The notes beneath the pieces are model-generated. The model was not told the origin of the DNA and did no database searches. It saw only the letters and a list, made by a program, of their open reading frames with translations. A stretch of DNA of 64,000 nucleotides from an uncultured Spirochaetaceae bacterium (lineage in GTDB: Bacteria; Spirochaetota; Spirochaetia; Treponematales; Treponemataceae), in assembly GCA_902789325.1 (NCBI GenBank), contig CADANN010000010.1:1-64000 (forward strand), read 5' to 3'. Shown one piece after another: positions 1 to 54,339 of the stretch; position 1 is the first letter of the stretch; every line of letters begins with the position of its first letter. Made by a program: the position numbers and the translations under genes.

Positions 1-240
1 GTCACAGATATCAACTTTTTCAAAGAAATAGCGTTTTCCACCAAACTTTTCTTCGATGTCTTTCAAAGATTCAAGATTTCCTGCGTATGTAAGACAGTCA
101 ACGTTTACTACTGTACCGTCAAAGTTTGCATCATTAAAAAGATTTCCCTCTGCTGAGGACATTCCAAAAAGATAATGAATGAAATTCGAGCCAATAAATC
201 CGGCTCCACCAGTGATAAGAATATTATGAAGTTTTCTCAT
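1..240 (-). CDS. rfbB: dTDP-glucose 4,6-dehydratase, N-terminal part (gene runs off the window)
   Basis: Only the first 80 codons are present. They read from an ATG at 240 leftward and begin [20 protein letters not shown], with the GGxGFIG dinucleotide-binding motif of extended short-chain dehydrogenases. The [16 protein letters not shown] segment that follows is typical of RmlB/RfbB, which converts dTDP-glucose to dTDP-4-keto-6-deoxyglucose for surface-sugar synthesis. The catalytic YxxxK region lies outside the window, so a related UDP-sugar epimerase is not fully excluded. A TATAAT box sits 7 nt before the ATG and no ribosome-binding site is visible. Confidence 0.85.
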
Positions 241-247
241 AAATTTT

Positions 248-276
248 ATTATATCATATATATGGTTAACAGTAAA
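248..276 (-). promoter_or_regulatory. candidate promoter of the rfbB-like gene
   Basis: On the minus strand, TTTACT (276-271), a 17-nt spacer and TATAAT (253-248) precede the ATG at 240 by 7 nt. Transcription would begin at about the start codon, so the mRNA may be leaderless. The prediction rests on sequence only. Confidence 0.5.
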
Positions 277-284
277 CAATACAC

Positions 285-357
285 ATAGACTCGGCCCAAA
301 AAAGGACTAAGCCAACGGGGATGATGTTGTCTTAGCCCTTTTTTGTTCCAAGTCTAT
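285..357 (-). terminator. bipartite hairpin terminator with conserved apex, copy 1
   Basis: The element lies 12 nt after the stop of the leftward pseudouridine synthase gene. The inner stem is AAAAAAGG/CCTTTTTT, an A·C mismatch, CTAAG/CTTAG, a C·T mismatch and CAAC/GTTG, capped by a 9-nt loop read ATCATCCCC on the transcribed strand. An outer stem ATAGACT/AGTCTAT (285-291 with 351-357) encloses it. The T-run after the inner stem fits intrinsic termination of leftward transcription. The 21-nt apex is identical in a second copy at 53655-53739, which has different but complementary stems. Confidence 0.8.
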
Positions 358-369
358 TCGTCATCCCTA

Positions 370-1014
370 TTACATAATAAAAGGCGTAGGAACTTCAAAT
401 ACTCTTTCAATTCCTTCGAGAGGAAGCGTTAAACGAACTGCCGCAAGTTGCAAGCGTTTAATTTTACAAACCTTTTTCAACAGTTTATTCATTTTAAAGT
501 TTCCGTGCTGGTCATCTCCGGCAATCGGGCAGTTGTTTTTTGCAAGATGGATACGAATCTGATGCATACGTCCTGTTTCAAGCTGAAGTTTTATAAGACA
601 CAAAGGAATCTCGCCAGTGCCATTTTCAGTTTCATAAGGTACAGACCATTCTTTTTCTACCTGATAATGAGTTACTGCAGCCTTACTGTCTCCATGCTGA
701 ACTACATCTTCACGAATTACTCCGCTTTTTGAAGGCATTTTACCGGCACATAATGCAGCATATTCTTTTTTTACGATTTTTGAACCAATCAGTTTTGTCC
801 ATTTTCCTGCGGCAACCGGATTTTTTGCAACAACCATAAGTCCAGACGTATCTTTATCAAGGCGGTGTACAAGGTAAACCTTTTGTTCTGTCTGTTCTGC
901 AAAATCACGGTCTACAGAATGTACAACCCCCTGTCCTCCCTGAACGGCAAGTCCAGCTGGTTTATCTATAATAAATATTTCGTTATTCTCATATATAACA
1001 GGTATCATATTCAT
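370..1014 (-). CDS. RluA-family RNA pseudouridine synthase
   Basis: This 214-aa protein is a single catalytic domain without the N-terminal S4 domain of RluC/RluD, so it resembles the short RluA-like branch that isomerises uridines in rRNA or tRNA. The signature HRLDKDTSGLMVVAK spans residues 50-64, with Asp53 as the predicted nucleophile. The GRMHQIRIHLA motif lies near residue 148. The exact RNA target cannot be told from sequence. The ATG at 1014 has no ribosome-binding site, but a TTGCCA-17-TATGAT promoter ends 6 nt before it. A second in-frame ATG lies 6 nt further on. Transcription appears to end at the hairpin 285-357. Confidence 0.92.
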   Translation of the reverse strand: MNMIPVIYENNEIFIIDKPAGLAVQGGQGVVHSVDRDFAEQTEQKVYLVHRLDKDTSGLMVVAKNPVAAGKWTKLIGSKIVKKEYAALCAGKMPSKSGVIREDVVQHGDSKAAVTHYQVEKEWSVPYETENGTGEIPLCLIKLQLETGRMHQIRIHLAKNNCPIAGDDQHGNFKMNKLLKKVCKIKRLQLAAVRLTLPLEGIERVFEVPTPFIM

Positions 1015-52301: not shown

Positions 52302-53567
52302 CTACTCTGTCGGACGCTTTTTGAAGCTCTTGCTTTCTGCAATTGCCTGACCTTCGCCTACTTTCTGCTCCATCATAGCACGTACCTTCAAAGGAAGTCC
52401 GAACAATGTAATGAAGCCCTGGGCATCTTTGTGATTGTAAAGTTCACCAGTTGTGAATGATGCAATTGATTCATTGTAGAGGCTGTATTTAGAGCCAGAA
52501 CCTGCACCACGGATAGCACCCTTAATCAATTTTACTTTTGCCCAGCCAGTTACAGTTTCTTCTGTCTTATCAACAAATGCCATACAAGCATCCATCAAAG
52601 TTGTAAACCACTTTCCATCATAGATAAGTTCACCCATGCGGAGAGATACCTGCTGCTTGTAGTGATATGTTTCACGGTCAAGACAAATGTGATCCATCAT
52701 TCTGTGAGCGAAGTAAAGAATTGCTCCACCTGGAGTTTCGTAAACACCGCGGCTCTTCATACCAACACAGCGGTTTTCACAAATATCAACAAGACCAACA
52801 CCATTGCGACCACCAATAACGTTGAGTTCATTCAAGAGGTCGAGGGAGTTCATCTTTTTGCCGTTGAGTCCAACTGGAATACCCTTTTCGAAGTCGATTG
52901 TTACATATTCGCCTTCTTCAGGAGCTTCTTCTGGAACGCAGGTATTTTTAAGCATGTGCTTGTAGTTTGGTTCATTTTCTGTCTTCTCAAGTTCAAGACC
53001 TTCGTGGCTGAGGTGCCAGATGTTCTCGTCACGTGAGTATGACTGGTCTTTCTTCATTGGAACTTCAAGACCACGGTCTTCAAGGAATTTGATTTCAGCT
53101 TCACGGCTGTCCATATTCCATTTGTCATCACGCCATGCAGCGATTACTTTAATATCTGGAGCAAAAGCTTTGATAGCAAGTTCAAAGCGAACCTGGTCAT
53201 TACCTTTACCAGTTGCACCGTGACAGATTGCTACAGCCTTTTCCTGACGTGCATATTCAACAAGAATCTTTCCAATAAGAGGACGTGCAGTTGAAGTTCC
53301 GAGGAGATATTCATCTTCGTAAACTGCATTTGCCTTGAGTGCTGGCCAGATGTATTCTTCAATATATTCCTGACGTGCATCTACAACGTAACATGCAGCG
53401 GCACCAGTTTTGAGAGCACGTGATTTTATTGCTTCCCAGTCATCGCCCTGTCCTACATCAATACATACAGCGATTACATCATAATCATAGTTTTCTTTGA
53501 GCCAAGGAATGATAACTGTTGTATCAAGTCCACCGGAATAAGCAAGTATTACTTTATCTTTTGCCAT
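52302..53567 (-). CDS. argG: argininosuccinate synthase
   Basis: From ATG 53567 (GGAGG 5 nt upstream; an in-frame TTG at 53579 is rejected) the enzyme has 421 aa. It begins KVILAYSGGLDTTVIIPWL, the N-type ATP pyrophosphatase loop, and carries CHGATGKGNDQVRFE, NGKKMNSLDLLNELN and GRNGVGLVDICENRCVG. It joins citrulline and aspartate in arginine synthesis. No other arg gene is nearby. Codon bias suggests good expression. Confidence 0.97.
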   Translation of the reverse strand: MAKDKVILAYSGGLDTTVIIPWLKENYDYDVIAVCIDVGQGDDWEAIKSRALKTGAAACYVVDARQEYIEEYIWPALKANAVYEDEYLLGTSTARPLIGKILVEYARQEKAVAICHGATGKGNDQVRFELAIKAFAPDIKVIAAWRDDKWNMDSREAEIKFLEDRGLEVPMKKDQSYSRDENIWHLSHEGLELEKTENEPNYKHMLKNTCVPEEAPEEGEYVTIDFEKGIPVGLNGKKMNSLDLLNELNVIGGRNGVGLVDICENRCVGMKSRGVYETPGGAILYFAHRMMDHICLDRETYHYKQQVSLRMGELIYDGKWFTTLMDACMAFVDKTEETVTGWAKVKLIKGAIRGAGSGSKYSLYNESIASFTTGELYNHKDAQGFITLFGLPLKVRAMMEQKVGEGQAIAESKSFKKRPTE

Positions 53568-53654
53568 ATTAGCCTCCAAATTGCATAAATATACACAAAA
53601 TATACAGTTTTATGCAAAAATATGCAAGACATCTATATAATAATTTGTCATACA

Positions 53655-53739
53655 TTAAGTCGACCTCTATGTAAAAAAGCCCCTTTGCCAACGGGGATGA
53701 TGTTGTCAAAGGAGCTTTTTTACGACGAGTCCGACTTAA
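53655..53739 (-). terminator. bipartite hairpin terminator with conserved apex, copy 2
   Basis: The element starts 12 nt after the stop of the leftward gene at 53752. The inner stem GTAAAAAAGC/GCTTTTTTAC is followed by a C·A mismatch, CCTTTG/CAAAGG, a C·T mismatch and CAAC/GTTG with the 9-nt loop ATCATCCCC on the transcribed strand. The outer stem is TTAAGTCG/CGACTTAA. The mismatch positions and apex equal those of copy 1 (285-357), although the stem sequences differ. Confidence 0.8.
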
Positions 53740-53751
53740 CAATACGAAGTT

Positions 53752-54339
53752 TTAAATAATCTCCGCTAGTTTTTGCATAAAATTATCTTCGGTAACCTGT
53801 ATATTTATGCTATTTGAAGACAATCTCAAGGTGAAGGTGTCATCGGGGTTTGATAAAACTTCGTGTGAGACTTTTAAGTGTTTTGAGGCATACGCTTTAA
53901 TGAACTCCAGGGCCAGCTTCTGGCGGCGTTCTGAGCGGGATTTATTTTCTAGTGATTGCTGGAGTTCGGTCAGGTAGTCCGGAAGTTTTGACAGAAATTC
54001 CGAGATTTCTGGAAGCGGATTATAGGGGAATTTAGCATCGCAGATCTTGATGTATTCTGGGCCGCATTTTTGCATGATGCTGGCTTTTATGTTGTTCTGA
54101 ATGAAGAGTCTGAGTTTTATTGTTGAAGTTAATGTTACTTCGAATGTACTGTACGACGGAAAATATTCGCAGGAGATTTTTGCATCAGGATGTGAGGTGG
54201 TAAATGCTTCGAACTCGGCGCGGCAATCTGCCATGCGAAGAGGGTCAGCATTTGTGCGGACCATATTTTTATGCTGAAGATGTACAAAATGTTCTTTCCA
54301 GAAATCAGCTTCATTATCAATATATTTTTGTGATGACAT
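53752..54339 (-). CDS. unknown protein of the MoxR/VWA cluster
   Basis: I do not recognise a family. The 195-aa soluble protein has two parts: residues about 1-100 with several beta strands (FEVTLTSTIKLRLFIQ), and 105-195 with a helix (LPDYLTELQQSLENKSRSERRQKLALEF) and another strand set (TFTLRLSSNSINIQV). The two strand sets may be a repeated domain. It is the third gene after MoxR and VWA and ends at the conserved-apex hairpin, so it probably serves as a partner or client of that pair. AGGAG lies 12 nt before the ATG. Confidence 0.65.
   Translation of the reverse strand: MSSQKYIDNEADFWKEHFVHLQHKNMVRTNADPLRMADCRAEFEAFTTSHPDAKISCEYFPSYSTFEVTLTSTIKLRLFIQNNIKASIMQKCGPEYIKICDAKFPYNPLPEISEFLSKLPDYLTELQQSLENKSRSERRQKLALEFIKAYASKHLKVSHEVLSNPDDTFTLRLSSNSINIQVTEDNFMQKLAEII

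Follow-up and report, generated by a model that had tools for sequence, protein, structure and literature searches.

Introduction

Several described systems resemble the hairpins reported here. REPs of the GTAG superfamily are palindromes of 20-40 bp with stems of 5-13 bp, and their genomes hold a RAYT (Y1_Tnp) gene flanked by REPs (PMC2817692, PMC3733652). CGTC-type REPs have a CGTC tag, stems of 8-9 bp and loops of 4-5 nt; they occur in many microorganisms and their transposase is not known (PMC3733652). Treponema carries chromosomal integrons with attC sites (PMC3607928). Terminators with conserved tips are represented by the HRC-8-4 motif and by the guanidine-IV type of terminator riboswitch (PMC8632094).

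The hairpins described below, found in a window of 64,000 nt of Treponema DNA and then in other genomes of the genus, share features with each of these. Like GTAG-superfamily REPs, they are dispersed intergenic palindromes with a four-base, GNAG-like head in the modules that can be parsed by it, a strand-specific hairpin, variable stems and a preference for the ends of transcription units. They differ in having a module of 58-61 nt, with a stem of about 22 bp nested in an unrelated outer palindrome, where REPs have 20-40 bp and stems of 5-13 bp; in keeping a species-specific loop strictly; in rarely forming dimers; in being restricted to one genus; and in lacking an intact Y1 transposase in the carriers sampled. 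CGTC-type REPs are found at the same places between genes in related sister species and likewise have no known transposase, but their tag, short stems, small loops and wide host range set them apart. In attC sites, too, structure is kept more than sequence, and there is an internal unpaired spacer and a variable terminal part; the Treponema hairpins, however, have neither R/L core sites at the base nor cassette arrays, and it is the tip that is conserved. With the HRC-8-4 and guanidine-IV terminators they share a terminator-like stem with conserved apical nucleotides; unlike those, they are not tied to one gene class, are found in both orientations and at divergent sites, and appear to have spread between loci.

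Two hairpins with one tip

The earlier note reported an identical 21-nt apex on two hairpins of the window. The sequence GCCAACGGGGATGATGTTGTC is indeed present at 311-331 and 53687-53707, its sole matches in the window at up to 3 mismatches, and none was found in shuffled sequences. Copy 1 (275-366, minus strand; covariance model R2, 69.5 bits, E 2e-16) folds on the minus strand into a long hairpin of -43.6 kcal/mol (z -9.05). Its outer stem, P1, pairs a 5' arm at 348-357 with a 3' arm at 285-294, and its inner stem, P2, pairs a 5' arm at 331-345, bearing an A-tract that is near-invariant across the family, with a 3' arm at 297-311 bearing a T-tract. The tip, GACAACATCATCCCCGTTGGC (311-331, minus strand), identified by tip match and by alignment A1, consists of an A.G mismatch, a CAAC/GTTG stem and the 9-nt loop ATCATCCCC. 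Copy 2 (53650-53743, minus strand; R2, 76.7 bits, E 2.1e-18) gives a similar long hairpin (-44.4 kcal/mol, z -9.47) with the same tip at 53687-53707 of the minus strand. The two stems were said to differ fully while remaining complementary; they are complementary, but they do not differ fully, since the A-tract and T-tract are common to both. The stem mismatches read on the plus strand as A·C or C·A and C·T become, on the minus strand, G.U wobbles and one A.G mismatch. Both window copies retain the tip, and in both the canonical GNA/GNRA internal loop of the family is degenerate or absent.

Each hairpin starts 12 nt past the stop of a leftward gene, as had been observed (stops at 370 and 53752). 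The gene before copy 1 (370-1014, minus strand) belongs to the RNA pseudouridylate synthase family (PF00849, E 6e-28). Directly beyond this copy lies a promoter-like TTTACT-17-TATAAT (248-276, minus strand; a consensus-scan assignment) of the next leftward gene, which is of the NAD-dependent epimerase/dehydratase family (1-240, minus strand; PF16363/PF01370) and is cut by the window. The gene before copy 2 (53752-54339, minus strand) has a borderline DUF2972 match, just below cut-off, and an argininosuccinate synthase gene (52302-53579, minus strand; PF20979/PF00764) starts beyond the copy.

A family found so far only in Treponema

Two copies is the right count for the window and not for the genome, where the 21-mer occurs nine times at no more than 1 mismatch, at unlinked places and each time on a different complementary stem, and where the covariance model finds 20-25 copies (about 20). 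The proposed search of related genomes with such a model did yield further copies: 32 of 200 species of Treponema are matched at least once at E 1e-5, with 1 to about 40 copies per carrier genome, and the best family-wide E-values reach 1e-22. Among the carriers are T. bryantii NK4A124 and a number of Treponema MAGs, one of yak origin. Other genera of the phylum gave no match (393 genomes sampled; family in 1 of 168 genera), and no viral contig carried the 21-mer. Two Pseudomonas matches to the 21-mer are due to chance and come without a hairpin match. Rfam 15 gave no gathering match in the window, in line with the earlier remark that no named RNA was known with this apex; at relaxed thresholds, six loci bearing elements or hairpins like them gave nothing beyond sub-threshold matches of the kind expected by chance. 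No paper on palindromic or extragenic repeats of Treponema was found to describe the family. The family is apparently undescribed and, among the genomes sampled, is restricted to one Treponema genus-level group.

Structure and folding strand

From base to tip, the element consists of the locus-specific P1, an internal loop (5'-GNA/3'-GNRA), P2, in which an A-tract that is nearly invariant family-wide pairs with the T-tract, and the tip. The inner module, M, is 58-61 nt long, ends in GNAR...GNRA and has a stem of about 22 bp. The GNAR head is GGAG in 58 and GTAG in 17 of the 96 modules that can be parsed by that head; 40 of 136 modules cannot be parsed, and the internal loop is absent or degenerate in many copies. 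Compensatory stem changes, on which the earlier note had staked its case, are abundant. In an alignment of 72 copies, both partners have changed in a compensating way at 26 of 29 pairs, and 93.1% of cells are paired, compared with 64% in shuffles. Because the structure guided that alignment, a MAFFT alignment of 19 copies made independently of structure also counts, and in it 87.1% of cells are paired and 20 of 29 pairs are double-changed. On the strand that carries the tip, G.T oppositions outnumber A.C by 56 to 4, and purine-purine oppositions outnumber pyrimidine-pyrimidine by 92 to 2. Judged by this asymmetry, the folding strand is the pyrimidine-loop strand, which fits RNA and single-stranded DNA alike.

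The commonest tip is GACAAC-loop-GTTGGC. A pyrimidine-rich loop is common to all copies of a species group, and its type varies between groups: ATCATYCCC in the bryantii clade and genome G007, TTTCTCT in G018, GTGTTTTTA in G142, and others elsewhere. The 21-nt apex of the window copies is thus not universal. In a MutS tree the carriers fall in two clades, and G007 bears the tip of the other clade, the bryantii clade, while its sister genome G094 has another tip. At one convergent locus, A7, which could be compared in six species, 18 of 37 pairs are double-changed and the tip and internal loop are near-constant, with the reservation that exact-tip loci were collected via the tip, so that tip conservation looks inflated. 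The constancy in place at A7 suggests a role in situ beyond mobility. The earlier proposal that the loop is recognized by a protein or small RNA is consistent with A7, and a loop-binding factor is possible given a tip kept in six species while half the stem pairs changed; the variety of loops elsewhere does not fit a single universal apex. Pairing of the loop with the internal loop and mimicry of an anti-SD sequence were both considered and rejected, as neither is consistent across the species loops.

Placement relative to genes

With genes called as longest ORFs, 127 copies could be placed: 65 are co-directional (52 in gene sense and 13 against it), 33 are convergent and 29 (23%) are divergent, compared with 55, 14 and 31%, respectively, for sampled intergenic regions. 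Gaps between convergent genes are enriched in elements (p 0.02). Stop codons adjoin the elements, and both window copies and many others lie 0-25 nt past a stop. A T-run follows P1 in 44 of the 85 copies whose upstream gene is co-oriented and in 9 of the 42 others (p 0.001). The T-tract within the inner stem is found in nearly all copies, and 85 of 127 copies, not including the divergent ones, are placed compatibly with termination. Replication strand as the cause of the orientation bias was rejected, since the GC skew of the convergent and divergent copies is not significant (35 of 59). The neighbouring genes are ordinary ones, with no enriched family and no common function.

The divergent copies do not fit a family that is simply a set of terminators, which is what the earlier note had called the hairpins. 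One such site lies within the window, at 2952-2962. It is empty in this genome, and locus comparison shows that four other species hold elements there with different stems. By promoter scan, two divergent promoter-like sequences flank the site and those copies fall exactly between their -35 boxes, so that neither promoter would transcribe them. At another locus (L044, genome G018), an element precedes a promoter-like sequence and an apparent tRNA-Asn gene.

Turnover of sites and apparent movement of the module

That a module appears to spread between loci independently of its outer stem could not have been seen from the window alone. Inner modules can be 93-97% identical although their loci are unlinked and their outer stems unrelated. 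Among module pairs at least 90% identical, with examples from G018 (three copies), G104 (two) and a comparison of G007 with G106, the P2 arms have an identity of 0.90 and the P1 arms one of 0.54, equal to the background of 0.54, and thus the module appears to move without the outer stem. Within one genome, P2 differs in most copies. Orthologous sites hold anything from identical to unrelated hairpins at similar flank identity, and one intergenic spot may, across species, lack an element or be occupied by another copy, by a reversed one (L361) or by a REP of the CGTC type. At the L047 site the element is reversed in one species and two others have CGTC-type REPs; at the L043 site CGTC-type REPs are found in two species. 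Neither target duplication nor a clean junction was seen at the sites compared, where the sequences differ over 98-140 nt, taking in the two P1 arms and extra bases. Empty sites have neither P1 arm, and the comparison therefore does not polarise gain against loss. The idea that M entered P1 hairpins already in place was rejected, as no orthologous P1 without M was found. Turnover, module identity and the tip of G007 favour spreading, whatever its mechanism.

One pair of loci from two species (L377 and L048) is near-identical over about 41 nt of left flank and the module, with an outer-stem 3' arm that is complementary in one only; the pair is a clue to the origin of the outer stem. Two elements at L246:4975-5177 are inverted and 7 nt apart, like a REP dimer. 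CGTC-type REP palindromes (GTCATGCTGAACTTGTTTCAG.., GTCATTGCGAG..), typed after PMC3733652, are scattered across these Treponema genomes (L172:4788-4848, L184:16284-16341, L132:2414-2483 and others; also L364, L366, L367 and L368); their core, CTGAACTTGTTTCAG, is present in 28 fetched loci and absent from the window.

Interpretation

We give about an even chance to the reading that these are genus-restricted, interspersed REP-like palindromes whose inner module spreads and which often double as terminators at gene ends. The spreading unit would be M, which caps an outer stem peculiar to each locus. From one intergenic site or one species it would pass to another, probably in the form of a single-stranded hairpin, and a putative trans-acting enzyme would read its shape, tip and foot. 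At a gene end the element may act as a bidirectional intrinsic terminator, with a GC stem and, after it, the built-in T-tract; such use could lead to its retention as a paired stem. Spreading is favoured by a multi-copy, intergenic family present in 32 of 200 species, by modules alike inside unlike outer stems, by turnover at orthologous sites, by the tip of G007 and by the strong strand asymmetry; termination is favoured by stop-codon adjacency, T-runs, convergent enrichment and an orientation that follows transcription 52:13. Against spreading are the carriers without intact PF01797, the sites without target duplication, the P2 differences among most copies of one genome, an orientation bias unexpectedly strong for a purely selfish element, the tip and internal loop held in place at A7, and window copies that keep the tip without the canonical internal loop.

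Those last points are the strength of an RNA-level regulon of 3'-end or leader hairpins, whose species-specific loop (and internal loop) would be bound by a protein or small RNA that modulates termination or mRNA decay. This is possible, though on the unlikely side. One loop type per species group, orientation with transcription, the A7 locus with its double-changed pairs, and tips that outlast the internal loop all agree with it; 29 of 127 copies between divergent genes, one such site directly between -35 boxes, do not, nor do neighbours without a common function or the reversed element at an orthologous site. Further, transcription would end at the built-in T-tract with P1 and the 3' half of the internal loop still unmade, and ascertainment by the tip exaggerates tip conservation. 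Ordinary intrinsic terminators, with tips alike by chance or local duplication, would account for hairpins with a GC stem and T-tract soon after stops, but not for a 21-nt tip at nine unlinked places, E-values to 1e-22, stems far longer than termination requires, or copies between divergent promoters. Copy number and placement refute this as a full explanation, and we consider it very improbable.

A REP family proper, mobilised by a RAYT-type Y1 transposase, is improbable, if a little less so. The GNAR head of the parsable modules (the window copies have none), the dispersed intergenic palindromes, the one inverted pair and the CGTC-type REPs at the same sites speak for it; an element about twice REP size, with a nested outer stem and mostly single, speaks against it. 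So does the search for an enzyme: RAYT/IS200 transposase (PF01797) was absent from ten sampled carriers (G000, G007, G014, G018, G025, G094, G096, G103, G105 and G106) and present as broken pieces only in G102 and G104, several carriers being incomplete MAGs in which absence of a gene is no proof. A reverse transcriptase partner is absent in most carriers. That the hairpins are stray attC sites recombined by IntI is hardly credible: attC is on record in Treponema, and structure-conserved hairpins with a variable apical part and AAC/GTT triplets recall it, but integron core sites (RYYYAAC..GTTRRRY) bracket just 2 of 136 elements, AAC/GTT is at the tip rather than the base, and there are no arrays.

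A further reading, which we regard as rather unlikely, is that of a structure-addressed mobile hairpin, outside the known transposase classes, that settles at the tips of host palindromes; a dedicated trans-acting factor would read the species-specific loop, and mobility and a genome-wide terminator or regulator network would share the tip. Returning to REP-like palindromes with a spreading module, the family suggests that such palindromes can exist and turn over in genomes without a RAYT gene and can supply intergenic terminators. With more than 100 sequence-independent stems on one fixed tip, tips that are specific to the species, and sites that are empty in sister species, it offers a clean natural experiment on the requirements of a factor that recognises hairpins.

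Enlarged apical domains

In some copies the apical part is much longer. Another apical domain also recurs, with the approximate form AAAC-AT-CTGCACAARCGAAGYGCGGAAG-CC-GTTT, and is carried in several species by stems like those of the family (L313:1491-1602, minus strand; L313:854-965, L325:1534-1646, L261:3023-3142 and L108:1108-1219, plus strand); the two loci searched, L261 and L108, had no Rfam match. In four other element copies the tip is replaced by a structured insert of about 50-130 nt (L264:1161-1348, L248:586-735 and L092:4885-5024, plus strand; L305:1501-1631, minus strand), and the inserts of L092 and L305 have CACTTTGAGG...CTCAACCG in common.
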